Virus record (IMG/VR): IMGVR_UViG_3300037827_000598
Coordinates: 1-23,124 of that record
DNA from: a virus
Length of the DNA: 23,124 nt
Strand: one strand, 5' to 3'
A model generated the notes under the pieces. That model worked only from the letters and a program-made list of their open reading frames with translations, was not told the origin of the DNA and did not search any database. The position numbers were made by a program, and so were the translations under genes. The stretch's first letter is position 1, and each line of letters opens with the position of its first letter. This document shows, piece after piece, positions 1,661 through 22,660 of the stretch.

Positions 1661-1930
1661 TTGGAACTCATAGATTATCTTGAAAAATTCGATATCAACA
1701 AAATGAAGTTTATTAAGAGAGTGAAAATAGCTCCATCAACCTTCTACAAGGTATTGTACAAGGAAACAGAGCCTTCACTTTCTCAAGCGCTTAAGATTGT
1801 AGAGCTAACGCAAGGAGAAGTAACATGCAAAGACTTATCACTATCATCTGAAACATCGGCTCAGGTGGTGGTTTCGAAGAAGAAGAAGAAGTCATTACGC
1901 CCCCTTAAAAGAATTGACACTCAAACTTAG
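1661..1930 (+). CDS. Cro/CI-like helix-turn-helix regulator (89 aa)
   Basis: The first 60 residues read as a small XRE/Cro-type DNA-binding domain: a first helix (LIDYLEKF), a turn region, a recognition-like segment IAPSTFYKVLYKETEPSLSQALKIVELTQGEVTCKDL, and then a basic low-complexity tail with five consecutive lysines near residue 73. EPSLSQALKIVELTQGEVT is typical of the third to fifth helices of YdaS/Cro-like proteins. It starts with TTG at 1661; AAGG lies ten bases upstream. The next internal ATG (1703) would cut off the first helix. It is divergent from the recombination operon and heads the replication block, the usual place for a phage early switch protein. No partner repressor is visible, so repressor versus Cro role cannot be decided. 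Confidence 0.7.
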   Translation: MELIDYLEKFDINKMKFIKRVKIAPSTFYKVLYKETEPSLSQALKIVELTQGEVTCKDLSLSSETSAQVVVSKKKKKSLRPLKRIDTQT

Positions 1931-5936: not shown

Positions 5937-5985
5937 CATCTGTTTCACAAAATGCCATGTTTACTCCTTATTTATTTTTCCTCGT

Positions 5986-10098: not shown

Positions 10099-10272
10099 AT
10101 GATCCCAGTTACATCTAAATATGAATTTTTTGATGGACACACTCAGCCAGTGCCGGTTGTGCACTGGTATGATTGTTTTAAGAAGAAGAAACACAAACGC
10201 GAACTAACAAAATGGGATATCGATTACACGGTACATGTCAGAGCAAAGTTAGAACTAGTAAAAAAGATTTAA
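10099..10272 (+). CDS. conserved small protein, paralogue of the gene at 5757 (57 aa)
   Basis: Begins ATGATCCCAGTTACATC directly after the previous TAA and encodes MIPVTSKYEFFDGHTQPVPV, then HWYDCFKKKKHKRELTKWDI and DYTVHVRAKLELVKKI. It is 83 percent identical over 53 residues (44/53) to the minus-strand protein at 5757-5936. Synonymous changes dominate in the central block, evidence for purifying selection on the protein. The conserved W-Y-D-C, KKKKHKR and KWDIDYT segments are the parts to examine. Function is unknown; the basic stretch suggests nucleic-acid or phosphate contact. The copies lie in opposite orientation about 4.2 kb apart. Confidence 0.75.
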   Translation: MIPVTSKYEFFDGHTQPVPVVHWYDCFKKKKHKRELTKWDIDYTVHVRAKLELVKKI

Positions 10273-10283
10273 GGCAATTGGTC

Positions 10284-10499
10284 ATGAAGTTTAAGGAATT
10301 ACCAGATGAAAGATTTGTCTGTTGTCTGGAATGTGGTTCAACTATTTTTTTAAAAGATCTTGTGGAGATTGAGGATGGATATGTCTCTATTAAATGTGAA
10401 GCTTGGGTTTGTGAAAGTTGCGGAGATTTTGTTATGGATCACAAGCAAATGGATAAGTGTCTTCAATTATATCGTAAATCTCGTGAAAAAAGATACTAG
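10284..10499 (+). CDS. small zinc-ribbon protein (71 aa)
   Basis: ATG at 10284 (MKFKELPDERFVCCLECGST) has AAGG nine bases upstream; the longer open frame from 10212 would overlap the conserved gene and is not needed. Two Cys pairs, CLEC near residue 14 and CESC near residue 47, are spaced as in a zinc ribbon, with beta-like segments between. It may bind DNA, RNA or RNA polymerase; specific function is unknown. It is the last gene before the portal promoter region. Confidence 0.6.
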   Translation: MKFKELPDERFVCCLECGSTIFLKDLVEIEDGYVSIKCEAWVCESCGDFVMDHKQMDKCLQLYRKSREKRY

Positions 10500-10525
10500 A
10501 CAATAAAAAAAATTTTGTATACGGT

Positions 10526-10545
10526 GTCAAGTAAAATGTTCAGTT
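10526..10545 (+). promoter_or_regulatory. 17-bp palindromic motif upstream of portal (copy 1)
   Basis: GTCAAGTAAAATGTT at 10526-10540 recurs exactly at 18263-18277. The full motif AAGTAAA-ATG-TTTACTT is a palindrome with a three-base centre; this copy keeps the left arm and five of seven right-arm bases (AAGTAAAATGTTCAGTT, 10529-10545). It sits 20 bp before the portal start. TAAAAT within it could double as a -10 box, but no properly spaced -35 is evident. Confidence 0.6.
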
Positions 10546-10564
10546 GTCAAAAAAGGACGCTCGG

Positions 10565-12655
10565 GTGACCCATTCCATAATCAAAGAATTAGACGATCGC
10601 TGCAAAGAAAGCCAGTCCTTGATGCAACAATGGTGGGTAGAGGCCAACAACGACACCAACATGGCGATAGGTCGCCAGGATTTCTACAACAACTATAATT
10701 TCACCAATACATACCGCAATCAAAGACTCCTACAATTCAACAAGATCCTTCGCATGTGCAACATGATTGAGGGATATCAGATCGACAATAGGCTTATGTC
10801 AGTCATGCAAGCTGGTGATAACGATCCTGATGCCGGAGAAACTGCGGATCAACGCACGACTGCAATAAATTGGGCCATGCGACAGGATAATACCTATGAA
10901 AAAATATCCGGAGCGTTTTCCGGTGCTGTTCGTGTTGGTTTGAATCTATTAAATGTGTGGATGGACTTTAGAGAAGATCCAGAGAATGGGGACATTAAGA
11001 CCGAAAAGATGTATTACTCCTCTTTCCTAATGGATCCATTTTGGACGAAGATGGATTTCTCCGATTGCGATTGGATATGGACACGAAGATACTTAAGTAG
11101 AGTACAGCTTAATAGTCTGATTCCCAATTTCGAAAGAGACCATCCTAATCTTGGAAAAGGTTACACCTCTAAAGATGGAAAATTCCAATACCTTCCTCAG
11201 AACTGGTATCAATATTCTGATATTCAAAACTTCTACGCCTATAACGAATATTGGAAGAGAGATTATAAGACCGTCAGAAAGATATTGGATAAATCCACCG
11301 GAGAAGTCGCTCCTTGGAATGGGACCAGAGAACAATTCCAATTGATGAGACGATTCAATCCAAACATTGAACTCATTAAAGCGCAAGTTCCCACAGTTAA
11401 GCTTCATATAGTGGTCAATAATACATTGGTGTATGAAGAGAAATCTCCTTATGGAGTGGATAAATATCCCTTCATTCCTTTCTTGGGATACCATAATACT
11501 GAGGTTCAAAACTACTCAGACAGATACTTTGGCATCGTCAGAAATATACGGGATTCGCAACGCGAACTCAATATTCGTCGTAATAGGCTACTCGATATCA
11601 TGGATGCGCAAGTTCAATCTGGACTTATGGTAAAGGAGGATTCTCTGGTTAATCCAGAAGATGCTTTCTTACAAGGCCCTGGCAAAGTTCTATATTTCAA
11701 ACAAAGCTCTAATTTAGCAACAGATGTCGCACCAATACCCCCACCTCCTGTTGCTCAAGGATGGATGGAGCTCATTCAGTCTATCGAAAAAGAGATCATG
11801 GACATTGTCGGTCCTGAAGAATTATTTGCCCAGAATCTTGGCGCTAAGGAAATGTCTGGTATCCTCATGAAGCTAAAGATGGGTGCTGGATTGACTGGGC
11901 TTAGAGGAATATTTGACAACTTAAATCTATCTCAAAAGCTGGTGGGAGAGCTGTTTGATGATATGATTGCTGCTAACTGGTCAGAAGGAAAGATGACACA
12001 AATCCTAGGGCATGCTCCATCTGAACATTTCTTCGATCCATATTATAGCAAATATCATTGCACCGTGGAAGAGGGCGAACTCACTGCATCACAAAGACAA
12101 TTTAAGTTGTTGCAGGCACTTCAATTCAAACAGATCAGCCCTGAAGCCATATCTGATGATTACATCTTGCGTATGTCTAATCTTCAAGATAAAAAGGAAC
12201 TTATTCAACAAGCACAACAACGACAAAAACAAGCTCAAGAGGCGCAGGAAATGCAGTTCTTGGCTGAGATGGACCAGAAACAAATGCTTGCTAGGTCAAT
12301 GGAAGCAAAGTCTCAAAATGATTTTGCAGCAGCCCAAGAAAGAATCACTCGTGCCGCAGCAGATCTGGGTCTTGCAAAAGAAAGATCCGCGCAAGCTATG
12401 CAAGATAGGGCAATGGCAGCTCTCGATAATGCCAAAGCACTAAAAGAAATAGAGCACATGGATGATGATAGGCTTATAAAGTTAGCAGAATTCATTATGA
12501 CTATGCAATTACACCAAAGAGATATTTCAGGTGGTGAAGAAAACGACTCCATAGCAGAGTCTGAAGGTCTTGGAGCTAATGTTAAGGCTGCGGAACAATC
12601 TACAAGAGTTCAAAGCCAACAACCGCAGCAACAGCCGCAAATGCAAAATCAATAA
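10565..12655 (+). CDS. portal protein
   Basis: About 696 residues, typical of large portals of short-tailed phages (P22-like class, roughly 700). Near the start, ARQDFYNNYN-type and NMIEGYQIDNRLMSVMQAGD segments are followed by TADQRTTAINWAMRQ, then a wing/crown region with YNEYWKRDYKT and the long-stem part PYPFIPFLGY-like YPFIPFLGYHNTEVQNYSDR. The C-terminus from about residue 535 is a Q/A-rich coiled coil (ELIQQAQQRQKQAQEAQEMQ) ending in a Gln-rich tail, as in P22-type barrel extensions. Portals form the dodecameric channel for DNA entry. GTG at 10565 is preferred, since AAAAAAGGA stands seven bases upstream; a TTG at 10544 is in frame but has no site. Confidence 0.85.
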   Translation: MTHSIIKELDDRCKESQSLMQQWWVEANNDTNMAIGRQDFYNNYNFTNTYRNQRLLQFNKILRMCNMIEGYQIDNRLMSVMQAGDNDPDAGETADQRTTAINWAMRQDNTYEKISGAFSGAVRVGLNLLNVWMDFREDPENGDIKTEKMYYSSFLMDPFWTKMDFSDCDWIWTRRYLSRVQLNSLIPNFERDHPNLGKGYTSKDGKFQYLPQNWYQYSDIQNFYAYNEYWKRDYKTVRKILDKSTGEVAPWNGTREQFQLMRRFNPNIELIKAQVPTVKLHIVVNNTLVYEEKSPYGVDKYPFIPFLGYHNTEVQNYSDRYFGIVRNIRDSQRELNIRRNRLLDIMDAQVQSGLMVKEDSLVNPEDAFLQGPGKVLYFKQSSNLATDVAPIPPPPVAQGWMELIQSIEKEIMDIVGPEELFAQNLGAKEMSGILMKLKMGAGLTGLRGIFDNLNLSQKLVGELFDDMIAANWSEGKMTQILGHAPSEHFFDPYYSKYHCTVEEGELTASQRQFKLLQALQFKQISPEAISDDYILRMSNLQDKKELIQQAQQRQKQAQEAQEMQFLAEMDQKQMLARSMEAKSQNDFAAAQERITRAAADLGLAKERSAQAMQDRAMAALDNAKALKEIEHMDDDRLIKLAEFIMTMQLHQRDISGGEENDSIAESEGLGANVKAAEQSTRVQSQQPQQQPQMQNQ

Positions 12656-12663
12656 CTTTTTTC

Positions 12664-12693
12664 TTGCCACAAAATTTACCCACAATATATAAC
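12664..12693 (+). promoter_or_regulatory. candidate promoter for the small-gene operon 12726-15640
   Basis: TTGCCA (12664-12669) and TATAAC (12688-12693), 18 bases apart, each match five of six consensus positions. They lie in the 70-bp gap after the portal and before the first small gene, so this operon could be expressed separately from the structural genes. Confidence 0.4.
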
Positions 12694-12725
12694 TCCCATA
12701 TTCACAATGCGTTTGGGAGCATTTC

Positions 12726-13025
12726 ATGTCCGATCAATCCGATATCGATGAATTCAACAAATTCACACATCTTGCGAAAATATTTCTTCGTCACTGCGAC
12801 GAATTTTGGAAAAAAAATGATGTCTCGGAAAGATGTGCTCTTTCGGCAATACTTTCATATGCCGTTATGTCTATCTCTAAGATCTCAAAAAGTGAAGAGG
12901 CCTTCAAGACTAAACTGGACCAGTTTTCGAAGCTTGCAGAATTGACCCTTGAAGAAATTACCAAATCAGGACACTGGAAAAAAATAAAAAATAACAGAGA
13001 AGAAGATAATGATCGGCGAATTTGA
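12726..13025 (+). CDS. small helical protein, family A member 1 (99 aa)
   Basis: Acidic and almost entirely helical: FNKFTHLAKIFLRHCDEFWK, then KNDVSERCALSAILSYAVMS, then KSEEAFKTKLDQFSKLAELT and a terminal EITKSGHWKKIK. It shares length, helix pattern and the closing (E/D)..FK..G.WK-like signature with the next gene, so the two look like diverged duplicates. GGGAG six bases before ATG supports the start. It is the first of many tiny genes after the portal. No known family; the general layout is shared with several other genes in the window. Confidence 0.65.
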   Translation: MSDQSDIDEFNKFTHLAKIFLRHCDEFWKKNDVSERCALSAILSYAVMSISKISKSEEAFKTKLDQFSKLAELTLEEITKSGHWKKIKNNREEDNDRRI

Positions 13026-13272
13026 TGATTTCAAGCAGCAGACAAAAATTTATATATCTGAATATTCAATATTAACTTCTGATTTTTTCTTGCGCAATGA
13101 GTTGTCTCAAGGGGTAACTATTTGCATTAAATATACTGACTTGATCGGCTATCTAGCTCAAATTACTGAAACTGAAGAAGAATATAAAGCATTATGTTAT
13201 GCGTTCCTAAAAGAATCTCAAGGGTGCTTGGAAGATTTCAAAAAAATTGGATTGTGGAAGGATAAAGAATGA
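13009..13272 (+). CDS. small helical protein, family A member 2 (87 aa)
   Basis: Helical, acidic protein: FDDFKQQTKIYISEYSILTS, then NELSQGVTICIKYTDLIGYL, then TETEEEYKALCYAFLKESQG and DFKKIGLWK at the end. Alignable by eye with its upstream neighbour in order and spacing of helices, though identity is low. It overlaps the upstream gene by 17 bp and the next by four (ATGA). Not recognised; a diverged paralogue of 12726-13025 is the best description. Confidence 0.65.
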   Translation: MIGEFDDFKQQTKIYISEYSILTSDFFLRNELSQGVTICIKYTDLIGYLAQITETEEEYKALCYAFLKESQGCLEDFKKIGLWKDKE

Positions 13273-13559
13273 TCAGTGAATTTCGAGATAGTGTTAAGTT
13301 ATGCGGAATTTGTGGTGAAAAACAAACAAATCCTTTTCTCACCGTTTTCTATTCAAAAACAAATGTTAAAATTATTTGTTGTTCGAAAAAATGCGTTGAT
13401 TTCTATTTGATAGGAATGTTGAAAGTGAAAAAAAATAGGAATGTTACTTTCATCGGTTTAAGTAACAAAACAAATATATCTGCGCCAAAACCTAAACGAA
13501 TGGCGGATTTAGAAAGAGTTAAGCAGTTGATCAGGTCTTCTCTACAGGACGATGTATGA
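13269..13559 (+). CDS. small Cys-rich, zinc-binding-like protein (96 aa)
   Basis: CGICGEKQTNPFLTVFYSKT followed by KIICCSKKCVDFYL provides CxxC (residues 12-15) and CCxxxC (about 37-42), spaced as a treble-clef or FCS-type zinc site. The C-terminal half is basic and polar, ending in a helix (MADLERVKQLIRSSLQDDV). ATG overlaps the previous stop (ATGA). Metal binding is likely from the spacing; target and role are unknown. Confidence 0.6.
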   Translation: MISEFRDSVKLCGICGEKQTNPFLTVFYSKTNVKIICCSKKCVDFYLIGMLKVKKNRNVTFIGLSNKTNISAPKPKRMADLERVKQLIRSSLQDDV

Positions 13560-13732
13560 ATTTCCAACTACAACAAGACAAATACTTCAAATTTTCCTCT
13601 AATGAAGAGAGGAGAAAAATGAAGATGGAACTCATGCAGGAAATGAGAGTGATCAGAAGGGAGATAAAAAAACTGCGTGAGAAGGAATGTGAGATTCAAT
13701 TGATGCTAGAAGGTGATTGGGTTTTGAAATGA
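13556..13732 (+). CDS. small coiled-coil protein (58 aa)
   Basis: Found by direct reading: ATG at 13556 overlaps the previous TGA and the frame runs MNFQLQQDKYFKFSSNEERR then a long charged helix KMKMELMQEMRVIRREIKKL, ending GDWVLK. Heptad-like methionine/leucine/isoleucine spacing over residues 22-52 suggests a coiled coil. Its TGA overlaps the next ATG (ATGA). The chain of overlaps supports that it is translated. Function unknown. Confidence 0.6.
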   Translation: MNFQLQQDKYFKFSSNEERRKMKMELMQEMRVIRREIKKLREKECEIQLMLEGDWVLK

Positions 13733-14025
13733 GCAATAGGGACGTAAAGTTAAGAGAAAGAGTTGTTGAATGCATTCATAAAATTAGTTCAACACTTGAC
13801 GTTGACTTCTTTAAAATGTGCAAAGATTTCAATTTAAATGAGAACGACCAAAAAGTTTTTTTAGTAGAAATATTGGGAACATTTGTCTTTTATGAATTGG
13901 CTAATGGTTGCAAAGAAATATCTTACGTAGAGGAAATCGTGGGTGTTTTCGCCGACGAATTGAAGAGAAATGCGAATGATTTCAAAAAACGATACGAAGA
14001 AATGGCAAAATTGAATGGATGGTAG
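13729..14025 (+). CDS. small helical protein, family B member 1 (98 aa)
   Basis: ATG at 13729 (MSNRDVKLRERVVECIHKIS) overlaps the previous stop and is preferred to an in-frame upstream start at 13717. The protein is all-helical: a first helix, then DFFKMCKDFNLNENDQKVFL, then VEILGTFVFYELANGCKEIS, and YVEEIVGVFADELKRNANDF. The middle pattern F..(L/M)C..F.(L/I)...(D/E) is shared with the next gene (EFINLCRKFEITDRTVRDST), pointing to common ancestry. No family recognised. Confidence 0.62.
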   Translation: MSNRDVKLRERVVECIHKISSTLDVDFFKMCKDFNLNENDQKVFLVEILGTFVFYELANGCKEISYVEEIVGVFADELKRNANDFKKRYEEMAKLNGW

Positions 14026-14320
14026 GCAACTCCAGCAATGTCAGGAGATTCTAGAAAATAGCAACGATTTGTTGAAGTCTTTGAATAGTTTATATAATCA
14101 GGAATTCATTAATTTATGCAGAAAATTTGAAATCACGGATAGGACAGTGCGGGACAGTACGTATGTGACTTTATTGGTTGTTTTCCTCACCGGAATGTTG
14201 GCGGGTAGATGTAACACCAAAGAATCATTTGATAAGATAATATCTACAGTGCACAATTTGATCGACTCATCCGCTGCAAATTTTCCAGCTTATATACAAT
14301 GGATAGAAGAAAGTGAATGA
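14015..14320 (+). CDS. small helical protein, family B member 2 (101 aa)
   Basis: Helical protein with SLYNQEFINLCRKFEITDRT, a hydrophobic helix YVTLLVVFLTGMLAGRC and a third helix after NTKESFDKIISTVHNLIDSS. Its order matches the gene upstream: F-x-x-(L/M)-C-x-x-F, a hydrophobic helix, a Cys/Gly turn, then KE/(Y/F)..(I/E)(I/V). It overlaps the upstream gene by 11 bp. The hydrophobic helix is not long enough to claim membrane insertion with confidence. Function unknown. Confidence 0.62.
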   Translation: MDGRQLQQCQEILENSNDLLKSLNSLYNQEFINLCRKFEITDRTVRDSTYVTLLVVFLTGMLAGRCNTKESFDKIISTVHNLIDSSAANFPAYIQWIEESE

Positions 14321-14356
14321 ATGTATAACTAAAAAAATATCTAATTAGTGTGAAAG

Positions 14357-14539
14357 ATGAACAAAAAAGAAATCGAAGAAAGAGTTGATTCTTTCATTCA
14401 AATTAGTCAAGAAGAGCCTGAAGATTGGAAAGAAAAGTATCTTTGTAAAGAATGTTTGTTGCGTGAATTAGAGAAATATGTTATAAAGGGTGGAAGTAAG
14501 GAATTATTCACTTTAACTAAATGCGAGTGTGATAAATGA
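14357..14539 (+). CDS. small Cys-containing protein (60 aa)
   Basis: Acidic N-terminal helix (MNKKEIEERVDSFIQISQEE), then YLCKECLLRELEKYV with a CxxC pair (30 and 33) and a terminal TLTKCECDK with C-x-C. The four Cys could make one zinc site. A short leader of 36 bp separates it from the preceding gene and its TGA overlaps the next ATG. Not recognised. Confidence 0.55.
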   Translation: MNKKEIEERVDSFIQISQEEPEDWKEKYLCKECLLRELEKYVIKGGSKELFTLTKCECDK

Positions 14540-14700
14540 ATGGAAAATTAGAAAAACAAATTAACATGATTATATCAACTTGCATCCATGATTTGGAAGA
14601 TCTTGGATTAAGCATGGATGAAATAACTAGAAGAATTGGTGAATATTTACTAGAATGTTGCGAAGATGATGAAGATAACGAGGAATGGGAAGATGAATAA
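14536..14700 (+). CDS. small acidic protein (54 aa)
   Basis: Found by direct reading from ATG 14536 (ATGA overlap). MNGKLEKQINMIISTCIHDL and EDLGLSMDEITRRIGEYLLE form two helices, followed by CCEDDEDNEEWEDE, a very acidic tail. The pattern MIISTCIHDLEDLGLSMDEI resembles a helix-loop-helix with acidic surface, such as small phage proteins that mimic or bind basic partners. No family recognised. Its last 8 bp overlap the next gene. Confidence 0.55.
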   Translation: MNGKLEKQINMIISTCIHDLEDLGLSMDEITRRIGEYLLECCEDDEDNEEWEDE

Positions 14701-14854
14701 TATTGACAGTTCAATTATGGGAATGAATTATTTTGAAATAAAATATACAACACCAGATGGTAAACCTGAATTATATTCAGATGAAAAAGAGAGAGAAGTG
14801 TTATTAGCAGAACAATTTCCAGATCAAAAGTTTGAATTCACTTGGAATGAGTAA
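14693..14854 (+). CDS. small hypothetical protein (53 aa)
   Basis: ATG at 14693 (MNNIDSSIMGMNYFEIKYTT) lies after GGAATGGGAAG and inside the previous gene's end; an in-frame start at 14666 would be antisense-free but overlaps more and lacks a site. The rest, TPDGKPELYSDEKEREVLLAE..., reads as a beta strand plus charged helix. The stop overlaps the next start (TAATG). Function not recognised. Confidence 0.52.
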   Translation: MNNIDSSIMGMNYFEIKYTTPDGKPELYSDEKEREVLLAEQFPDQKFEFTWNE

Positions 14855-15201
14855 TGGAAGATGAAGACATTGTGTACTTTTACACGTTGCTTGGAGTTTT
14901 ATTGAAAAATTTCAAAGAAACAAGCAAAATGACTGACGAAGATTTTATAAAAATTTTTCAAGCTCATTTGTCTTCAAATTTCTATTTTAAATCTGATTCA
15001 AAAGAAGATTTTAAAAAATTTATATCAAGATTTGTCGAAGTTTGTGAAGTTTTATGGAAGGAACGAATTAAAGCAAAACATGAAAATGACAAATCTTTCG
15101 ATGCCTCCACAAGCATGCCTGAAGGCACAGAAAATTTGAAAAATGGCGAAAAAGATGAAAAAGCACCTACAATGCCATGTGGGCCATATAGGTTCTCTTA
15201 A
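14854..15201 (+). CDS. small helical protein (115 aa)
   Basis: Helical: DIVYFYTLLGVLLKNFKETS, then KMTDEDFIKIFQAHLSSNFY, then DSKEDFKKFISRFVEVCEVL and a polar low-complexity tail of about 40 residues. The three-helix order and the T/S-x-E-(D/E)-F-x-(K)-x-(I/F) signature resemble family A and B proteins in this operon, though identity is low. Starts with TAATG coupling. The tail (DASTSMPEGTENLKNGEKDE) is probably disordered. Function unknown. Confidence 0.62.
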   Translation: MEDEDIVYFYTLLGVLLKNFKETSKMTDEDFIKIFQAHLSSNFYFKSDSKEDFKKFISRFVEVCEVLWKERIKAKHENDKSFDASTSMPEGTENLKNGEKDEKAPTMPCGPYRFS

Positions 15202-15233
15202 TTTGTTTACATAATTACCATTATCGGACGTTT

Positions 15234-15347
15234 ATGGAAATTTATCGGTATGTTTGTCCAAATTGCCTTCGCACTTTTATTGATTACGTTAAAGAAGACA
15301 AGTTTTGCTGGAAATGTGGACAAAAGTTAGAGTGTATTGGAAAATGA
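15234..15347 (+). CDS. 37-residue zinc-ribbon peptide
   Basis: Found by direct reading: ATG at 15234 gives MEIYRYVCPNCLRTFIDYVK then EDKFCWKCGQKLECIGK. CPNC and CWKC are spaced as a compact zinc ribbon with knuckles of the C-P-x-C / C-x-x-C-G type, so zinc binding is likely. Its TGA overlaps the next ATG (ATGA). Such mini-ribbons occur in phages as transcription or translation modulators, but nothing specific can be assigned. Confidence 0.62.
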   Translation: MEIYRYVCPNCLRTFIDYVKEDKFCWKCGQKLECIGK

Positions 15348-15640
15348 ACGATAAATGCTCGATATGCAAACTTTCCTTCGAAGAATCCACAACGCAATTC
15401 TATAAGCGTTTAAAGAATGAATCTCCTAAAATATGTGCTGATTGCAACCGATTAGAGAAAGCTGAAGAAAGAGCTATCGTTCGCGCAAATGCCCGCGATC
15501 TATCACCTGAACAATCTATTTTGGTCGAATTGCGTTCATTAAATAGAAAAAACAAAGGCTTGTCTGTCCCATATCTCATGAGAAAGCTTAAAGTTTCGAA
15601 TCAAGAAGCACAAGAATTATATTCAAATTTTCTTAGTTGA
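15344..15640 (+). CDS. zinc-finger protein, last gene of operon (98 aa)
   Basis: ATG at 15344 (MNDKCSICKLSFEESTTQFY) overlaps the previous TGA; the longer frame from 15305 would overlap the zinc-ribbon peptide. CSIC (5-8) and CADC (about 31-34) form a four-Cys site of the kind seen in small HNH-like or RING-like folds, but no HNH histidines are present. The C-terminal half, LSPEQSILVELRSLNRKNKG and LSVPYLMRKLKVSNQEAQEL, is a winged-helix-like segment, so the protein may bind nucleic acid. A strong terminator follows. Confidence 0.62.
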   Translation: MNDKCSICKLSFEESTTQFYKRLKNESPKICADCNRLEKAEERAIVRANARDLSPEQSILVELRSLNRKNKGLSVPYLMRKLKVSNQEAQELYSNFLS

Positions 15641-15661
15641 AGTGTACGGATGCACTTCTAG

Positions 15662-15693
15662 CGCGCAATGTTAGCAGCTTGCGCGTTTTTTTT
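15662..15693 (+). terminator. strong Rho-independent terminator of the small-gene operon
   Basis: CGCGCAA (15662-15668) and TTGCGCG (15679-15685) form a perfect seven-base-pair GC-rich stem with a ten-base loop, followed by eight T residues. A second small hairpin, GAAGTG/CACTTC, lies just before it. The T tract runs into the stop codon of the convergent toxin gene. Confidence 0.85.
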
Positions 15694-15964
15694 ACTCATA
15701 CACATCTTTTCTGTGATCGATTTCTATGATCAAAACTGTGATGATACCTTGATCTACTTTGTAGATGACACGATGATCTCCAATTCTAAGTCTTCTATGG
15801 TTTTTCAAATCTCCCTTAAGAGGTTTTCCAAATTCCAAAGGATGAGTCGATAATTTTTCACCAATTGATCGTAATATTCTTTCTCTCATCGATTTTGTAA
15901 TGGAAGGAAGTTGATTTTTCAAAACTTTTGGCAAATAGATTATTTTATACCGAATATCTGACAT
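15692..15964 (-). CDS. RelE/ParE-family toxin
   Basis: 90 residues, normal RelE length. The core signature is clear: EFGKPLKGDL (residues 44-53), HRRLRIGDHRVIYKV (56-70) and the C-terminal IDHRKDVYE (82-90). RelE-type proteins cleave ribosome-bound mRNA; ParE-type poison gyrase. The HRKDVYE ending and the RRLR/DHRVIY core fit the RelE branch. The gene lies after, and overlaps by 25 bp, an RHH antitoxin gene. ATG at 15964 has GAGGA four to five bases upstream. Located between virion genes, it may stabilise a prophage or plasmid form, or defend against competing phages; both are inferences. Confidence 0.88.
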   Translation of the reverse strand: MSDIRYKIIYLPKVLKNQLPSITKSMRERILRSIGEKLSTHPLEFGKPLKGDLKNHRRLRIGDHRVIYKVDQGIITVLIIEIDHRKDVYE

Positions 15965-16176
15965 ACTTCCTCATGAGTATAAGTATCCTGACCAACAGAT
16001 TCCAATTCAGCTTCATCGGATCTGATAGATAAAAGATAATCCTCATAGTCTTCAAGCCAATTCTCAACCATTTTTTTTACCATTGAAGACATACTCATTT
16101 TCTTTTTTTCGCTTAATATCAATAGAACCTCAAAATCACTAGGATTTAGACTTACATTTACTCTAGGACTTTTCAT
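15940..16176 (-). CDS. ribbon-helix-helix antitoxin
   Basis: ATG at 16176 (MKSPRVNVSLNPSDFEVLLI) has GGAGG four bases upstream; the open frame continues upstream to 16206 without a site. Residues 4-45 form a ribbon-helix-helix: RVNVSL strand, NPSDFEVLLILSEKKKM helix, then SMSSMVKKMVENWLEDYEDY helix. The acidic C-terminal part (SDEAELESVGQDTYTHEEVC) would wrap the toxin. Such antitoxins neutralise the toxin and repress their own promoter. The overlap with the toxin start favours coupled translation, antitoxin first. Confidence 0.85.
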   Translation of the reverse strand: MKSPRVNVSLNPSDFEVLLILSEKKKMSMSSMVKKMVENWLEDYEDYLLSIRSDEAELESVGQDTYTHEEVCQIFGIK

Positions 16177-16196
16177 AAAACCTCCATTTGACATTA

Positions 16197-16225
16197 AGTG
16201 TATCATATATGTTCCATCGAGTCAA
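16197..16225 (-). promoter_or_regulatory. toxin-antitoxin promoter with overlapping palindrome
   Basis: On the minus strand TTGACT (16225-16220), a 17-base spacer and TACACT (16202-16197) form a good promoter pair just upstream of the antitoxin. The spacer contains the self-complementary CATATATG, a plausible binding site for the RHH antitoxin and so for autoregulation. Confidence 0.5.
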
Positions 16226-16240
16226 TGAAGTTTAGATTCG

Positions 16241-16269
16241 TTTACAATAAAATAATTCTTTGATATACA
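16241..16269 (+). promoter_or_regulatory. candidate promoter for the membrane-protein gene
   Basis: TTTACA (16241-16246), a 17-base AT-rich spacer and TATACA (16264-16269) match five and four of six consensus bases. It is divergent from the toxin-antitoxin promoter and about 45 bp before the ATG at 16315. The gene thus looks independently transcribed. Confidence 0.5.
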
Positions 16270-16314
16270 GAAATATGTTTCACCTATCATATCTAATCAT
16301 AACCGGAGAAATGT

Positions 16315-17145
16315 ATGGCAATAACTTTAAGTCATGTCGCGAAATACTCTGCCGAAATTCTGGCAGCTGCACCAATGGTAATACCTTTTGGATTATCCTT
16401 GGGTTCTAATATCATAGAATACCATGCCGAATGTAGACCTGTTCGAGAAATAGGAAAACTTACTGGAAGAATATTTTCGATTCTAACTTTGATTTCTTCT
16501 GTGCCATTGCTGGTTATCTCAATATCTAAATTTGCTGCGACTTTCTTCATGGTTTGCTGGACTTTCGGAGAAATCAAGCCCATCATAGATTTACATGAAT
16601 TTGTCTACAAACAGCTTCAGCAATCTATTGCCTTTACAGCAATTACAATTGTTTATCTCACAACGATGGATTCTATAAGGACGGGATTGACTTTATATGG
16701 TCACAACAAAGGCACCATCAGCACAAAAGTTACTTTCGATTGCATTGTGGGAGAACTAGATCAATCCTTAGATACTTTTGGTTGGTCTGCGCATGAGAAG
16801 GAAAGAGCAATCGAGTCAGTTAGGACTTTCATGTTTTATAGGAAAGAAGGAGAAAATCCCGTCGACCCAGATTTCGAGGTTTCTGAAAATGGAGAAGATA
16901 TTCCCAAAGTAGATAGTCCAAAGATTTCTGATCCAAAGACTCCTGAAGAAATGGATAAACCAAAACTTTTGATAGAAAAGCCTCCAAGTCCAGAGAATGT
17001 TCCGGAAGGGAAACCTCACACACCACCAAAAGAATATAAATCGCCAAGTCCTCATAAAGATGAAGATGGGGAATTACTCGTTCCCGAGCAAGCTAAGCCA
17101 ATTCCGGCGCAAGTTCCGAAGAAAATCTACTGGCCATTTGGCTAG
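16315..17145 (+). CDS. membrane protein with proline-rich charged tail (276 aa)
   Basis: The N-terminal third is hydrophobic: a moderately hydrophobic segment at 13-34, a long segment at about 53-82 (IFSILTLISSVPLLVISISK and on, long enough for a helical hairpin), and another at about 104-118. Residues 120-180 are soluble, and 181-276 form a proline-, lysine- and acid-rich tail (KPPSPENVPEGKPHTPPKEY) with no predicted fold. It sits alone between two minus-strand operons, with its own promoter and terminator. A single-gene accessory (moron-like) function is likely, perhaps at the host envelope. A bilobed hydrophobic domain plus disordered tail could also suit an effector, but no family is recognised. 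Confidence 0.6.
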   Translation: MAITLSHVAKYSAEILAAAPMVIPFGLSLGSNIIEYHAECRPVREIGKLTGRIFSILTLISSVPLLVISISKFAATFFMVCWTFGEIKPIIDLHEFVYKQLQQSIAFTAITIVYLTTMDSIRTGLTLYGHNKGTISTKVTFDCIVGELDQSLDTFGWSAHEKERAIESVRTFMFYRKEGENPVDPDFEVSENGEDIPKVDSPKISDPKTPEEMDKPKLLIEKPPSPENVPEGKPHTPPKEYKSPSPHKDEDGELLVPEQAKPIPAQVPKKIYWPFG

Positions 17146-17164
17146 TAGATTAGGAAAAAGTGAA

Positions 17165-17198
17165 ACTAAGCATTATTTTCTTAGTCTATATTTTTTTT
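17165..17198 (+). terminator. Rho-independent terminator after membrane protein
   Basis: ACTAAG (17165-17170) pairs with CTTAGT (17180-17185) over a nine-base loop, followed by CTATA and eight T residues (17191-17198). The stem is AT-containing and only moderately strong. It overlaps the 3' end of the convergent minus-strand gene. Confidence 0.55.
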
Positions 17199-17461
17199 AA
17201 TTTAACATATCCTTCATTTCTAGATTTTTCAATAAACATCTTTATCATGTCATTGAACATTTGATGGTCTGTAGACATTGAAGAAGTGAGCATTATTAAG
17301 CGGGTAGCAAGCACATCCCATGCCTGGTTGTCAGATAATCCATTTTTTTCACAAAATTTCTTGTAAATATCGAAAAATTCATCCCAACATCCAAGGGCAA
17401 AATCTAACTCTTTTAAACTTTTAAAACCGAAATCACTACTTTTTAATCCTGGATCAGACAT
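17186..17461 (-). CDS. small helical protein (91 aa)
   Basis: ATG at 17461 (MSDPGLKSSDFGFKSLKELD) has GGGAGG eight bases upstream. Helical body: FALGCWDEFFDIYKKFCEKN, then GLSDNQAWDVLATRLIMLTS, then MSTDHQMFNDMIKMFIEKSR. The last helices (F.. I.K F/L, LSDN-type loop, L..L helix, F.(D/E)(M/L)) match the layout of the minus-strand protein at 17743-17994, whose start MIDPVLKCGDLDVKKLKEID is clearly related to SDPGLKSSDFGFKSLKELDF, a shared (I/S)DP-x-LK-x-x-D motif. The two are diverged paralogues. Last gene of the minus-strand operon; function unknown. Confidence 0.65.
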   Translation of the reverse strand: MSDPGLKSSDFGFKSLKELDFALGCWDEFFDIYKKFCEKNGLSDNQAWDVLATRLIMLTSSMSTDHQMFNDMIKMFIEKSRNEGYVKLKKI

Positions 17462-17465
17462 TTTT

Positions 17466-17750
17466 TTATCCTCCCAAGATCCGATCAACCTTCTTTAGGA
17501 TTTTAAATTTACAAGGAAATCCTTCAGAGTCTATAAATTCATTTACATAATTGTGTTTCAACATTAAACCATGCAACTTGAATATCGGCAAAGACGCACA
17601 TTCGGCACACATACATACCATTGCATAATTAAATGGATTGTCTACCAAAATCAAACCATTTTTTATTCCAAAATCGCAATTGCAACATTTTTCTAAATTC
17701 GATATATCATCCATAAATTTTTTGCATTTTTCTAACACTGAATCAGTCAT
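17466..17750 (-). CDS. Cys-rich protein (94 aa)
   Basis: CNLEKCCNCDFG-type and VCMCAECASL segments hold CCxC near 22-25 and CxCxxC near 46-51, a likely zinc-binding pair. The rest is partly helical (MLKHNYVNEFIDSEGFPCKF). AGGAG lies about four to five bases before ATG at 17750; the gene overlaps the upstream one by eight bases. It sits between the two paralogous helical genes, an arrangement of alternating helical and zinc-type genes like that at 13009-13732. Function not recognised. Confidence 0.6.
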   Translation of the reverse strand: MTDSVLEKCKKFMDDISNLEKCCNCDFGIKNGLILVDNPFNYAMVCMCAECASLPIFKLHGLMLKHNYVNEFIDSEGFPCKFKILKKVDRILGG

Positions 17751-17994
17751 TTTTCTCCTGATTGTAATATGAAAAAATATCCACGTAAGACTCTTTTAGT
17801 CCTTCCGCCAATTCATTAAAAAGTTCGGGAGGAATTTTATGTCGGCCAATCTCATTGAGCAATTTTCCAATCAGAATATGTAAAAATTCATCGTCTGAAC
17901 ATCCATTTGTCACCTTCCACCAACCAAGAATTGAGTCGATCTCCTTTAATTTTTTAACATCCAAATCTCCGCATTTTAATACTGGATCAATCAT
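17743..17994 (-). CDS. small helical protein, paralogue of 17186-17461 (83 aa)
   Basis: MIDPVLKCGDLDVKKLKEID resembles the N-terminus of the protein at 17186-17461 in sequence, and both continue with ILGWW/ALGCW, a C-S-D-D-E / G-L-S-D-N loop, an amphipathic helix and a final F-N-(E/D)-(L/M) helix. It is shorter by about eight residues between the tryptophans and the loop. AAGGA precedes ATG at 17994 and the gene overlaps its upstream neighbour by four bases. Function unknown. Confidence 0.65.
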   Translation of the reverse strand: MIDPVLKCGDLDVKKLKEIDSILGWWKVTNGCSDDEFLHILIGKLLNEIGRHKIPPELFNELAEGLKESYVDIFSYYNQEKND

Positions 17995-18194
17995 TTTTTT
18001 CCTTCCTTCAAAAGATCGATGAACATTTGGTAAAGCTGATCTGTCCTTTGCATTTGCAAACGAATATCAGCATCTAGTTTATTTATGAAATAAAAGAGCA
18101 TACCACCTAATGTTCCGACTATAAAAATAACTTGTATCCAATCCACAAAATCCCCTTTTCCATCCAGCTTATCATTTCCCCTATTTCCAGTCAT
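17991..18194 (-). CDS. single-span membrane protein (67 aa)
   Basis: A charged N-terminus (MTGNRGNDKLDGKGDFVDWI), one transmembrane helix at about 19-37 (QVIFIVGTLGGMLFYFI) and a charged coiled-coil-like C-terminus (NKLDADIRLQMQRTDQLYQM). This topology occurs in small phage proteins including some holin- or Rz-like accessories, but no lysozyme or spanin partner is nearby, so the function stays open. AGGA lies eight bases before ATG at 18194. It is the first gene of the minus-strand operon and follows the palindromic motif copy at 18213-18229. Confidence 0.6.
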   Translation of the reverse strand: MTGNRGNDKLDGKGDFVDWIQVIFIVGTLGGMLFYFINKLDADIRLQMQRTDQLYQMFIDLLKEGKK

Positions 18195-18212
18195 TACGTT
18201 TTCCTAAAGAAC

Positions 18213-18282
18213 TAATAAACATTTTACTTGATGAAATCTAAAGAATGTTCTATATGTTGGGAGTCAAGTAAAATGTTTACTT
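18213..18282. promoter_or_regulatory. divergent pair of the 17-bp palindromic motif (copies 2 and 3)
   Basis: Copy 2, on the minus strand at 18229-18213, reads AAGTAAAATGTTTATTA and precedes the minus-strand operon by 19 bp. Copy 3, plus strand at 18266-18282, is the perfect palindrome AAGTAAA-ATG-TTTACTT and precedes the gene at 18304 by 21 bp. Copies 2 and 3 share the 16-mer TCAAGTAAAATGTTTA, and copy 3 shares a 15-mer with the motif before the portal. The symmetric layout around a divergent intergenic region suggests a regulator-binding site. Confidence 0.7.
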
Positions 18283-18303
18283 AACCATATATGGAGATAA
18301 GTT

Positions 18304-18624
18304 ATGAAGTACAAAGGTGAAATGAAGGAAAAGGCGGATCCTAGACCTTCAAAAAAAATGGCAAATAATAATTCACTATCCAAAGACATGAGCGGTGGAG
18401 AATCTGCCAGAAGAATGCGTAGCAATCCTGACACGGGACCAGAAGTAAAAATGGGTGCCCATCATTGGGATAAAGGTTACATGGCTGATGAAGATGTTTT
18501 CGATAGAGATGAAACATATCCAGATGACACGCAACGTGGTAATGAATATGTGAAAATGGCTAAAGAAATTGTGAAACGCGATTCAACAAAACTGAAACGC
18601 TCACCTTTTTCAAAGATTCATTAA
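18304..18624 (+). CDS. hydrophilic hypothetical protein (106 aa)
   Basis: Strongly hydrophilic with many K, D, E, R, S and N, and few hydrophobic residues; segments such as MKYKGEMKEKADPRPSKKMA and HHWDKGYMADEDVFDRDETY suggest a largely disordered protein. GGAG lies seven bases before the ATG. The stop overlaps the next start (TAATG). First gene of the capsid operon. Disordered, charged proteins at this position can be internal head or scaffold accessory proteins, but no family is recognised. Confidence 0.62.
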   Translation: MKYKGEMKEKADPRPSKKMANNNSLSKDMSGGESARRMRSNPDTGPEVKMGAHHWDKGYMADEDVFDRDETYPDDTQRGNEYVKMAKEIVKRDSTKLKRSPFSKIH

Positions 18625-19016
18625 TGATTATTCCTTACGCGACCAAGGGTCAGGAGTTAGGTGAGACTCGTCAAGCAATGACTAAAACGTTAATGCAAGA
18701 CATAGAAAAAGTCATCAACAAATACAAAGATAAGAAGGGTAAATACTACCTTCTCGTACATGCCAAGCCATTTCCTGATCACAACCAAGTGATCAAGATT
18801 AAGATGGTAGCAATGAACATTAAACCATCCATGATGCTTTCTTGCTTGTTGTTTGGCATCGACAACGATACAGGGACCCTTACTTTAGAGTGGGCCCTTC
18901 CTGGAGATTGGCCAACATGGGCCGTAGGAGGTTCTAACGAGCCAGTCCCAGAGGTAATCGCCTCCATAAACCAGTGTGGAGTAAGATACCATTACGACGA
19001 TTTATTACCAAGCTAG
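18624..19016 (+). CDS. hypothetical protein in capsid operon (130 aa)
   Basis: Mixed alpha/beta soluble protein: a charged helix (ALGETRQAMTKT-type, then LMQDIEKVINKYKDKKGKYY), then a beta region (YLLVHAKPFPDHNQVIKIKM, SCLLFGIDNDTGTLTLEWAL, PGDWPTWAV). Its regular alternation of strands suggests a compact fold. Coupled to the gene before it by TAATG. Located two genes before the capsid; it could be a head or scaffold accessory. Not recognised. Confidence 0.65.
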   Translation: MIIPYATKGQELGETRQAMTKTLMQDIEKVINKYKDKKGKYYLLVHAKPFPDHNQVIKIKMVAMNIKPSMMLSCLLFGIDNDTGTLTLEWALPGDWPTWAVGGSNEPVPEVIASINQCGVRYHYDDLLPS

Positions 19017-19104
19017 ATCGGCTTAAAGATCAATGTGGAGCCGACATGAACGGGCTATAAACTTTTTAGGGCGTATAAGCATTGTCGCCAAATGCGAGGA
19101 AAAT

Positions 19105-19812
19105 ATGACAGAAGAAACTGAAGTGCAAGAAGAAGAAATTCAAGTTGCACAAGAGCCGCAAGAAGTTGCAGAGACAGAATCTAAAGCAGTGCCTGAAAAA
19201 CCTGCTACAAACGAACAACAGATAAACTGGCAGAAGGCCAATGAAGTCCTCAAATATCAGCAACAAAGAATTGCTGAACTTGAAGCTCGTCAAGCCGAAA
19301 TGCAAAGACCTGTTGAGCCTGAGAAAGACGAGTTTGCAGATTTAGAACCCGACGATTACATGCCTGTTGGTAAAGCTAAGCTATACGCAGAAAGAATCGC
19401 CGAGAAGAAAGCTAAAGAAGCCGTAAAGGTTGCTTTGGATGAGTATTCTAGAAAAAGCAACATCGATACAGATGAAGCTAGGATGCGTTCTAAATATGAA
19501 GATTATGACTATGTAATTGAAAACTTTGCAGCTCCCCAATTTAAAAACGATCCTGCGCTCAAGCATAAGATACAAAACTCCAAAAATCCCGCAGAGACCG
19601 CTTACAAGCTAGGAAAATTATCGGAAGACTATGAAGGAGTAACAATGCCACAAAAAACAAGCCCCAAGGCTGAGAGGATCCTAAAAAATGCCTCTAGACC
19701 TGTTAGTGGGAATGCAGTAGGCGCACCGCTCAAAGGACAAGCCGATGAGTTTTCCAAAATGTCTAAAGAGGAAGTTTGGAGAATGTCACAAAAATATGCG
19801 AGCCAGGGCTAA
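19105..19812 (+). CDS. phage scaffolding-like protein
   Basis: The real start is probably ATG at 19105 (MTEETEVQEEEIQVAQEPQE) with GAGGA four bases upstream; the frame is open from 19033 without a ribosome site. The protein (235 aa) is acidic at the N-terminus, Q/E/A-rich with a coiled coil at about 40-70 (NWQKANEVLKYQQQRIAELE), a charged middle with AERIAEKKAKEAVKVALDEY, and a basic C-terminal helix (EEVWRMSQKYASQG) that commonly binds the capsid. It precedes the major capsid gene by 13 bp. This composition and placement are typical for scaffolds that guide prohead assembly and are later removed; no protease gene is seen in the window. Confidence 0.7.
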   Translation: MTEETEVQEEEIQVAQEPQEVAETESKAVPEKPATNEQQINWQKANEVLKYQQQRIAELEARQAEMQRPVEPEKDEFADLEPDDYMPVGKAKLYAERIAEKKAKEAVKVALDEYSRKSNIDTDEARMRSKYEDYDYVIENFAAPQFKNDPALKHKIQNSKNPAETAYKLGKLSEDYEGVTMPQKTSPKAERILKNASRPVSGNAVGAPLKGQADEFSKMSKEEVWRMSQKYASQG

Positions 19813-19825
19813 AAAGAGGCTCTAA

Positions 19826-20776
19826 ATGACAATTACAACAACCAACGCATTGCCAGCTCCGATTCAGCAATGGTTCGACAACGTGCTTTTGTCACGTCCG
19901 ATGCCAAAATTGATTCACAAGCAAATGGCGATGAAGAAGGAATTACCCACAAATAGTGGGCGTATAGCTCGGTATCGAAGATACACGAACTTAGCAACGG
20001 CAACAGTGCCGCTACCTGATTCAGGAATAACGCCTCCAGGGCAAGTTCTGAACTCGATTGATATTGATGCAAGATTGGATTTTTACGGAACATACGTAAC
20101 AATCACGGATCAAGTCATGTTTATCAACCAAGATCCTGTTTTGAATCAAACTGTAAGCTTATTAGCGCAGTCAATGAGAGAAACAGAAGACGAGTTAATT
20201 CGTAATATGCTTGCATCGACAGCTACAGTTCTTAACTGTACTGGTGGTGTGAACGGGGATAACCCAACAGAATTGGCCCGTAGTGATATTGACTTAACGA
20301 TCAAAACATTGCTCGGTAACGATGCGATGATGATCTCTGACAATATCGAAGGTAGCTTGAAATTTGGTACAGCTCCAATTCGAGAATCTTTCTGGGGTAT
20401 GTTAAATACTTTTGTCTTGGATGACTTAGAAGCCGTAACAGGTTTCATTTCCCAGGCTCAGTATCCAAATAATATGAACGTATTGAATGCAGAATGGGGT
20501 TCAGTTTCGAACGTCCGCTTCTTGTATAGCTCTAAAGGCTCTACAAGCCCTAGCGCTTCATTGAACGGCAACACGATTTATAACATTTTCGTGGCTGCTC
20601 AAGAAGCTTATGCGGTGATCGAATTGACTTCAGCTACAGCGTCGTTCATTTACACACCTCCTGGTGGACCTACCGATCCACTTCGCAGGTTGCAATTAGG
20701 TGCATGGAAAATGGCACAGGTACCGCGTCTATTGAATGATGCGTGGCTTGTAAACTTACGCGCTACACACTCATAG
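19826..20776 (+). CDS. major capsid protein, N4-gp56 family
   Basis: 316 residues. The opening MTITTTNALPAPIQQWFDNV then LLSRPMPKLIHKQMAMKKEL, the GRIARYRRYTNLATATVPLP segment and the domain DARLDFYGTYVTITDQVMFI followed by LLAQSMRETEDELIRNMLAS are characteristic of the N4-gp56-type HK97-fold major capsid proteins. The C-terminal QEAYAVIELTSATASFIYTP and PLRRLQLGAWKMAQVPRLLND fit the end of the fold. It builds the shell on the scaffold encoded upstream. GAGG is six bases before the ATG. A short 10-bp gap to the next gene indicates one operon. Assigned from sequence memory of the family, without a search. Confidence 0.88.
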   Translation: MTITTTNALPAPIQQWFDNVLLSRPMPKLIHKQMAMKKELPTNSGRIARYRRYTNLATATVPLPDSGITPPGQVLNSIDIDARLDFYGTYVTITDQVMFINQDPVLNQTVSLLAQSMRETEDELIRNMLASTATVLNCTGGVNGDNPTELARSDIDLTIKTLLGNDAMMISDNIEGSLKFGTAPIRESFWGMLNTFVLDDLEAVTGFISQAQYPNNMNVLNAEWGSVSNVRFLYSSKGSTSPSASLNGNTIYNIFVAAQEAYAVIELTSATASFIYTPPGGPTDPLRRLQLGAWKMAQVPRLLNDAWLVNLRATHS

Positions 20777-20786
20777 GAGGTATATT

Positions 20787-21803
20787 ATGCCATTTGCTGA
20801 ACATTTTATGATTAGTGGTGTTACTACTGCTGCTCAGACTGCAACTTTGCCAGCGTCTATCAACATCAACTGTGGTTTTCTTCCAACGAAGATCATGGTT
20901 TATGACGAGACACAATGGGGTGCATCAGGGACCGGCTTTGAAGTGATTCAATCCATGTTTTGGGATTCATCTTTCCCAACACAGACTAAAGTCACTTATT
21001 ACAACGCTGCTGGTACTGCTTTATTGAACTCTGCTGTTACTACAAACGCGATTTCACAATACGATGGACATAACTCCGTTCTATTAGGAACTCCTGTCAC
21101 TGGTACGACCATCACTAAAGCAAACCCTGCCGTAGCTACTGCTACAGCGCATGGTTTCCAAACTGGCCAACAAGTAATTATCACAAATAACGTTGTGATG
21201 AAACAATTGGGTGGAATTATTTTCACTGTTACGGTAACAGGTGCAAACACTTTCACAATTCCAATTAATACAAACACAGCTAACTTCACTGCAGAAACTG
21301 GCTTTACAGTAACTCCAGTGTCAGTTGGACCTCTGTTTTATCCACAAAGAACAACCATCACTGGTATCACTGCTGCTAACCCTATGGTTATCACTACAGC
21401 TACCAACCATGGTTTGACAGTGGGTCAGCAAGTTCGTTTAAGCATTCCATCAGTATTTGGAATGCAGCAGGCTAACTTCCTAACATCTGTAATTACAGCA
21501 ACAACTGCTACCACAATCACACTTGGTAACTTGAACTCAGCTGCATTTACAGCGTTTGCGTGGCCTGCAGCGACTGCTATTCCTTTCACAGATGCTCAAG
21601 TCATTCCAATTGGATCGGGACCGGCTCCCTTTACTTTTGGAAACATCACATACAACATGGATGTATTGGATGATGCGACTTTGAACCAACAATTCCAAGG
21701 TTTCACTATTGGAGCTGGTTTACTTCAAACTGCTTCCTCTAGCGTAATCGGTATTGTAGCTTCTGACGTTCTATCGTGGACGGCATGGAGAGGTGACGTT
21801 TAA
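20787..21803 (+). CDS. virion protein with two FCCH-like repeats (338 aa)
   Basis: Residues 1-100 form an N-terminal domain (MPFAEHFMISGVTTAAQTAT ... TQWGASGTGFEVIQSMFWDS). Two related modules follow: 107-172 (GTTITKANPAVATATAHGFQ, TGQQVIITN, NTFTIPI, FTAETGF) and 190-260 (TITGITAANPMVITTATNHG, TVGQQVRLSI, TITLGNL, FTAFAW). The pattern I-x-x-A-x-P-x-V-x-T-x-x-x-H-G-(F/L)-x-x-G-Q-x-V matches the ubiquitin-activating-enzyme FCCH-like domain found in many phage structural proteins. Its position right after the capsid gene suggests a capsid decoration or head protein. GGAGG precedes the ATG. The same module reappears in the next gene. Confidence 0.7.
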   Translation: MPFAEHFMISGVTTAAQTATLPASININCGFLPTKIMVYDETQWGASGTGFEVIQSMFWDSSFPTQTKVTYYNAAGTALLNSAVTTNAISQYDGHNSVLLGTPVTGTTITKANPAVATATAHGFQTGQQVIITNNVVMKQLGGIIFTVTVTGANTFTIPINTNTANFTAETGFTVTPVSVGPLFYPQRTTITGITAANPMVITTATNHGLTVGQQVRLSIPSVFGMQQANFLTSVITATTATTITLGNLNSAAFTAFAWPAATAIPFTDAQVIPIGSGPAPFTFGNITYNMDVLDDATLNQQFQGFTIGAGLLQTASSSVIGIVASDVLSWTAWRGDV

Positions 21804-21823
21804 TAGTGGATTAAAACCCATTA

Positions 21824-21853
21824 GACCTGCGGGAGAATATTTTCTCGCAGGTC
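21824..21853 (+). terminator. long hairpin between capsid-adjacent genes (weak terminator or attenuator)
   Basis: The 30 bases form an almost continuous inverted repeat: a perfect eight-base-pair base (GACCTGCG with CGCAGGTC), then further pairs with two G-U wobbles up to a tiny loop. Only ACATTTT follows, so the T tract is short and termination would be partial. It probably sets the ratio of capsid-type proteins to downstream connector proteins or protects the 3' end of the upstream mRNA. Confidence 0.6.
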
Positions 21854-21868
21854 ACATTTTAGGAGATT

Positions 21869-22273
21869 ATGGTATTTAGTCCGGCTTTGATGACAGTCAC
21901 AAATATTACCCAAGCATTGCCTGCGGTTGCAACTACTGCTTTGGCTCATGGACTAACTACGGGTCAAGTTGTTAGATTTTTCGTTCCCAAAGCTTATGGA
22001 ATGACACAGATCGCAGGAATTCCATTACAAGTGAGCGTGCTTAGTTCTATAACTTTCAGCTTACAATATAGCCAAGTGCCATTTGTTAATGTAGATTCAA
22101 GACACTTTACTGCTTTTGTCAATGCAGGAACCGGAACTCCATGCACGGCAAACGCAATTGGATCTGCTCCAACGCCAGTAACAAATACGGCACCACAATT
22201 ACAGAACAACATCGCTGATTCGCTCCTAGGTGATGCGACAGCAAATATATCAACGGTAGAAATACCATTTTAG
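21869..22273 (+). CDS. virion protein with one FCCH-like module (134 aa)
   Basis: ATG at 21869 with AGGAG three bases upstream. Residues about 9-75 (VTNITQALPAVATTALAHGL, TTGQVVRFFVPKAYGMTQIA, ITFSLQYS, HFTAFV) repeat the module seen twice in the upstream protein, including HGL-x-x-GQ-V and GM-(T/Q)Q. The C-terminal 50 residues are polar and A/T/N-rich. Probably a head or head-tail joining structural protein derived by duplication of the same domain. Confidence 0.65.
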   Translation: MVFSPALMTVTNITQALPAVATTALAHGLTTGQVVRFFVPKAYGMTQIAGIPLQVSVLSSITFSLQYSQVPFVNVDSRHFTAFVNAGTGTPCTANAIGSAPTPVTNTAPQLQNNIADSLLGDATANISTVEIPF

Positions 22274-22282
22274 AGAGGTCAT

Positions 22283-22660
22283 ATGGCAGAAACAAAAGCA
22301 TACAAAAGAAGAGAAACGATTCATCCTCCAATCAACATGTCTGCGGTGAATAAAGATTCCATCGAAGCGATTACAAAAGAAACCGACAGGATGGTTACGG
22401 GAACATTTGTGAACGTGGAGTGTCCAGGTCAAACTGCAATGATCAACTGCAAATATTACAAAGGTCAACAAGTTTTCAAGCAGCTTATGTTTGATAACGA
22501 AAAGTACACAGTCCCATTGTCTGTTGCTCGACATATTAACGAGAGATGCTTCTACCAGCAACACAAGAACGTGTTAGATGCTAATGGGCTAAATATAAAA
22601 GGTGATGGACCTAAGATTGCAAGATATAAATTTGTTGTTGATGGTTATTTAAATAACTAA
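22283..22660 (+). CDS. hypothetical structural-region protein (125 aa)
   Basis: A basic N-terminus (MAETKAYKRRETIHPPINMS), a charged middle (AVNKDSIEAITKETDRMVTG) and a beta-rich, Cys-containing section (TFVNVECPGQTAMINCKYYK, FKQLMFDNEKYTVPLSVARH). RHINERCFYQQHKNVLDANG and the closing strand KIARYKFVVDGYLNN follow. GAGAGG lies five bases before the ATG. The order capsid, FCCH proteins, this gene, connector candidate suggests a head protein; no family is recognised. Confidence 0.62.
   Translation: MAETKAYKRRETIHPPINMSAVNKDSIEAITKETDRMVTGTFVNVECPGQTAMINCKYYKGQQVFKQLMFDNEKYTVPLSVARHINERCFYQQHKNVLDANGLNIKGDGPKIARYKFVVDGYLNN

Follow-up and report, generated by a model that had tools for sequence, protein, structure and literature searches.

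A palindromic site before three transcription units

The window analysed here is the whole 23,124-nucleotide stretch of the IMG/VR virus record IMGVR_UViG_3300037827_000598, and the element in question is a palindromic DNA site that lies before its portal gene, before a minus-strand operon of small genes and before its capsid operon. The three copies listed in the initial annotation were all found in the sequence where it had placed them, as was the 15-mer GTCAAGTAAAATGTT common to the two plus-strand copies (10526-10540 at the portal gene and 18263-18277 at the capsid operon). The 14-mer TCAAGTAAAATGTT has exactly three exact copies in the window, one per transcription unit and each directed into its unit; it is the only 14-mer with three copies, and any such 14-mer arose in 7 of 200 dinucleotide shuffles. 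The units, the putative operator copies (P, M and C) and the putative promoters are listed below, with scores from the position weight matrix (PWM) of the next section.

10497..10525, plus strand: putative sigma70-type portal promoter, TAGACA-17-TACGGT, with its -10 overlapping the first base of the operator
10525..10549, plus strand: putative operator copy P (portal), TGTCAAGTAAAATGTTCAGTTGTCA, PWM score 19.9
10565..12655, plus strand: portal protein gene, probable start GTG 10565 with AAGGA 7 nt upstream; phrog_156, E 3.5e-68
17186..18194, minus strand: operon of four small genes, the first encoding a 67-aa protein that probably has a single membrane span and is conserved in relatives
18209..18233, minus strand: putative operator copy M (minus-strand operon), CATCAAGTAAAATGTTTATTAGTTC on the minus strand
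18228..18256, plus strand: putative capsid-operon promoter, TTGATG-17-TATATG, with its -35 overlapping the end of operator copy M
18262..18286, plus strand: putative operator copy C (capsid operon), AGTCAAGTAAAATGTTTACTTAACC, PWM score 26.2
18304..22660, plus strand: capsid operon, comprising a 106-aa first gene, a 130-aa gene, a scaffold-like protein, the major capsid and tail-like proteins

The portal gene probably starts at GTG 10565 and not at TTG 10544, which lies inside the motif and lacks a ribosome-binding site, and the start codons therefore lie 38-41 nt downstream of the motif in all three units. The earlier estimate of about 20 bp between motif and start codon holds for the portal gene with this start, but not for the longer open reading frame (ORF), whose TTG overlaps the motif. 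The description of the element as a 17-bp palindrome was likewise correct in part, since the sites are present but the capsid copy alone is free of mismatches; copies P and M carry two each, confined to the promoter-distal arm, and comparison with relatives shows the true unit to be a palindrome of 25 bp. The centers of the two divergent copies, M and C, are 53 bp apart.

Conservation of the site in related phages

A motif scan of 103 related viral loci (1.24 Mb) gave 20 exact copies of AAGTAAA-N3-TTTACTT and 20 more with a single mismatch. Eight other spacers gave no exact and 0-6 one-mismatch occurrences, and reversed half-sites gave none. Some contigs had been fetched twice, leaving 34 unique sites for a PWM that was built symmetrically from sites chosen by their 17-bp core. 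The flanks were not selected, and the symmetry of the matrix extends over 25 bp, the full site being TGT(A/C)AAGTAAA-N3-TTTACTT(T/G)ACA. At a score of at least 18 there were 42 matches, compared to 0 in the reversed sequence and 0.2 on average with permuted half-sites.

The placement of these sites is nearly exclusive to late genes. Automatic assignment accounted for 33 of the 37 unique strong sites, with 17 at the capsid operon, 8 at the portal gene, 6 at the scaffold gene and 2 at a tail-fibre-like gene. On inspection, two of the four left over belonged to the capsid operon and one to a tail gene whose ORF had been miscalled, whereas L027:5536 is unexplained; none of the 37 lies in the early region. 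In relatives, the scan proposed in the initial annotation placed the site in front of these same virion genes, with hardly a copy elsewhere. Of the two arms, the promoter-proximal one is the better conserved. Where a relative lacks the AAGTAAA type, its place is often taken by a different AT-rich palindrome, for example GTTAAAAAAATTTTTAAC (L012), AAGTTAAATATTTAACTT (L083) and AAGAAAACTGTTTTCTT (L064), as expected if the operator diverges; compared by eye, these palindromes look like drift of one operator.

Independently of homology, the whole of IMG/VR was scanned for TGTNAAGTAAANNNTTTACTT, which identified about 91 loci, 20 of them sharing at least three proteins with the family of the window phage. 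Distant family members were recovered in this way (capsid 36-80% identical, portal 36-50%), with sites at the portal gene (L226), the terminase gene (L243, L287, L292), the scaffold gene (L218, L231) and the 130-aa gene (L234), and the still more distant phage L207 has a portal-like gene 7 nt downstream of the site. For L274, L282 and L285, three of the 20, the shared proteins are all early-type or uncharacterized, and the sites are not at identified late genes. The sites in non-family loci (33 within ORFs, 39 between) include several that recur in groups of unrelated phages. Among such phages, L233, L237, L241, L256 and similar ones show AAGTAAA-N3-TTTACTTGACA ending in an apparent promoter -35 box, a recurring pattern but perhaps a coincidence with TTGACA.

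A proposed late-gene operator

Two classes of site have TTGACA-like and TANNNT-like hexamers upstream, and in each class none of 500 shuffles was as good. The hexamers, although imperfect, lie 17 bp apart at a common upstream place, the arrangement of a sigma70-type promoter, and the distance from the -35 to the palindrome is 28 nt in the capsid type and 22 nt in the portal/tail type. No good -35/-10 pair was recognized at the minus-strand unit. Because these pairs sit upstream at class-specific distances, the palindrome would cover about -10 to +25 of the expected transcription start. Shared placement and symmetry had originally been attributed either to one regulator or to a phage-specific promoter element. 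A single shared cis-element is borne out. Of the two options, the binding site of a single regulator is the better fit, given the sigma70-like -35, 17-bp spacer and -10 upstream and their shifting distance from the site.

On balance, we favor the reading of the palindrome as the operator of a late-gene regulon, overlapping sigma70-type promoters and bound by a dimeric protein whose release would turn on the virion genes. This DNA-binding protein, encoded by phage or host and most likely acting as a repressor or timer, would occupy the 25-bp site where it overlaps the start of otherwise ordinary sigma70-type promoters before the portal, capsid, scaffold and tail operons, and before the terminase gene in some relatives. 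Once bound, the protein would block the promoter or the initial stages of transcription, and its release or decay would turn on the virion genes together. A repressor operator is the simplest reading of a site that lies across the expected start of transcription and whose phase relative to the -10 varies. The sequences themselves show a conserved site, placed almost only at late genes, with promoter-like hexamers upstream; that a protein binds there, that it represses and does not activate, and that it sets the timing are inferences. Such a regulon would be readable across a widespread uncultured phage group, with the sequence predicting which genes switch together.

Several observations weigh against this proposal. 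Weak -10 hexamers (TATNNN) in the capsid class leave room for activation, as these promoters could require an activator. Some relatives have no recognizable site, and no regulator for it was identified among the candidates examined. The most widespread of these, the Cro-like helix-turn-helix (HTH) protein encoded at 1661, diverges among the phages, its recognition helix varying among genomes with identical operators, and a search for the motif in the control region of the 1661 family gave best scores below 0 in all 15 loci examined. Finally, a search of 14 long contigs yielded no integrase, so that a role as a lysogenic repressor would lack its usual companion.

A phage-specific late promoter or activator element, read by a phage activator or a modified polymerase, is the alternative that survives best, although we consider it unlikely. 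It would account for the almost exclusive placement at late genes and for the weak -10 boxes of the capsid class. However, the site lies downstream of the -35/-10 pair, and its distance from that pair changes by 6 bp from one class to the other, an arrangement more easily reconciled with a blocker than with an activator; moreover, no phage sigma factor was detected in 14 long relatives (no PF04542 match, with responding controls, in contigs that may be incomplete). The search for a T7-type polymerase gave no PF00940 match in 14 contigs, but as its controls were silent too, it carries no weight either way.

Candidate regulators

The initial annotation had nominated the HTH proteins encoded at 1661, 8587 and 8804 for binding tests, and the comparison with relatives supports none of them as the regulator. 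The gene at 8587 has no counterpart in the contigs of motif-bearing relatives, and the gene at 8804, which overlaps it, has only a weak HTH match and lies outside the ORF set compared with relatives. The third is located as follows.

1661..1930, plus strand: Cro-like HTH protein gene, in the early divergent region

A more specific version of the operator proposal, in which the palindrome is the operator of this Cro-like protein and controls late and early genes, is rather improbable. The gene is present in all 11 motif-bearing genomes with enough sequence and encodes the only DNA-binding regulator seen in all of them. Nevertheless, the motif is absent from the divergent control region of the gene, where other, genome-specific inverted repeats are seen, the recognition helices differ as described above, and the gene also occurs in relatives without the motif. 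The inverted repeats upstream of 1661 and in relatives (for example TATGCT...AGCATA in G010) probably serve as operators for the Cro-like protein itself.

The regulator is at least as likely to be a host protein or a phage protein that has escaped recognition; if found, it would make this a late-gene switch distinct from the classical early switch. A winged-helix gene downstream of the HTH gene was considered and dropped as the general regulator, since weak sites precede it in two genomes only and searches of the window, G031 and G032 did not detect it. A DGQHR protein, resembling the GmrSD N-terminal domain below cut-off, is present in five of seven motif-rich genomes and in none of seven others, a weak association picked from many clusters.

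RNA structure and chance as explanations

A role of the palindrome as RNA, in which late mRNAs would begin with a stem-loop that stabilizes them or controls their translation, is highly doubtful. The site lies within the predicted leader, and perfect extended copies fold (L035, z -2.7; L096, z -2.0), but the portal copy of the window and L071 do not fold into this stem-loop. Changes in the distal arm are uncompensated, with 16 broken A-A/G-G pairs against about six wobbles, counted over position 7 and the two core positions that vary most. Both the loss of pairing at variable positions and the unfolded portal copy speak against an RNA role. That AT-rich intergenic DNA produces the similarity by chance or through its composition is scarcely credible: the palindrome count is at chance level within the window alone (four 17-bp palindromes with at most three mismatches, 4.2 expected) and similar sequences occur in unrelated phages, but the spacer-specific enrichment and gene-specific placement in relatives contradict it.

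Comparison with known systems

The operators of Cro and CI in lambdoid phages are symmetric, overlap a sigma70-type promoter and lie in the early divergent control region. The site described here is likewise symmetric and overlaps a putative sigma70-type promoter; however, almost all copies are at late genes, and none was found in the divergent region with the Cro-like gene. The stoperators of cluster A mycobacteriophages (L5, Bxb1) are many copies of a phage-wide repressor site whose specificity drifts between phages (PMC6550527). They resemble the present case in that several copies of one site are tied to transcription units. In contrast to the 20-30 stoperators per genome, most of them away from promoters, the 25-bp palindrome occurs 0-5 times per contig with at most two mismatches, at late-gene promoters and with the strong copies before genes. 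Phage N4 has inverted repeats at its early promoters, and its late transcription is by host sigma70 polymerase (PMC4496689). The N4 hairpins are GC-rich and serve the virion polymerase at early genes, whereas the sites found here are AT-rich and at late genes.

A pseudoknot in the scaffold leader

The leader of the scaffold gene, which probably starts at ATG 19105, contains an H-type pseudoknot (19070-19095) directly before GAGG, the Shine-Dalgarno sequence of the gene. Its stems pair GGCG (19070-19073) with CGCC (19086-19089) and GCATT (19079-19083) with AATGC (19091-19095). Among 48 leaders, 38 exceeded the 95% point of shuffles for this geometry, a few of those best matches being other pairings. 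In a set of 31 leaders, mostly picked for carrying the pseudoknot, pairing held in 95.5% of cells compared to 76.5 in shuffles. Seven of nine pairs change on both sides, with 50 double-change cells compared to 10 in shuffles, and slid controls for the alignment all collapse. An Rfam search gave no match for the pseudoknot. A hairpin (19039-19056) lies upstream, and the element as a whole (19039-19107) is conserved in about 31 leaders.

The pseudoknot looks like a possible translational operator of scaffold synthesis. Scaffold synthesis in P22 is under autogenous control; a literature search turned up no paper on this. The pseudoknot would open translational control of a phage scaffold gene to direct testing. 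A further reading, less likely than not, is a two-layer control of virion assembly, in which a conserved late-gene operator (in phages with capsids down to 36% identity), read by a host-encoded or unrecognized phage regulator independent of the Cro-like switch, would be combined with a covarying pseudoknot controlling scaffold translation.

Host and neighboring genes

Other phage genes of the window encode the terminase large subunit, the major head protein (phrog_1357) and a DnaD/O-like replication protein. Close relatives are almost only viral contigs (38 portal loci and 66 capsid loci), and known isolates are distant, with identities of at most about 23% for the portal, about 25-28% for the capsid and about 19-28% overall. 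The only match in genome collections is a 5.3-kb contig in a Syntrophaceae metagenome-assembled genome (capsid 89% identical); as this contig may be mis-binned, no host is claimed.

The major capsid gene is interrupted or has an altered start in relatives L066, L068, L085, L093, L097, L100 and L231, and no known intron family reached the Rfam gathering score in six of these seven loci (L068 left out). Between the portal and capsid units, two overlapping small genes on the minus strand (15692-16206) have by eye the look of a RelE/HigB-type toxin and its antitoxin, and both are also present in G007. Near-duplicate small genes (VVHWYDCFKKKKHKR...) occur on opposite strands at 5757-5948 (minus) and 10099-10272 (plus).
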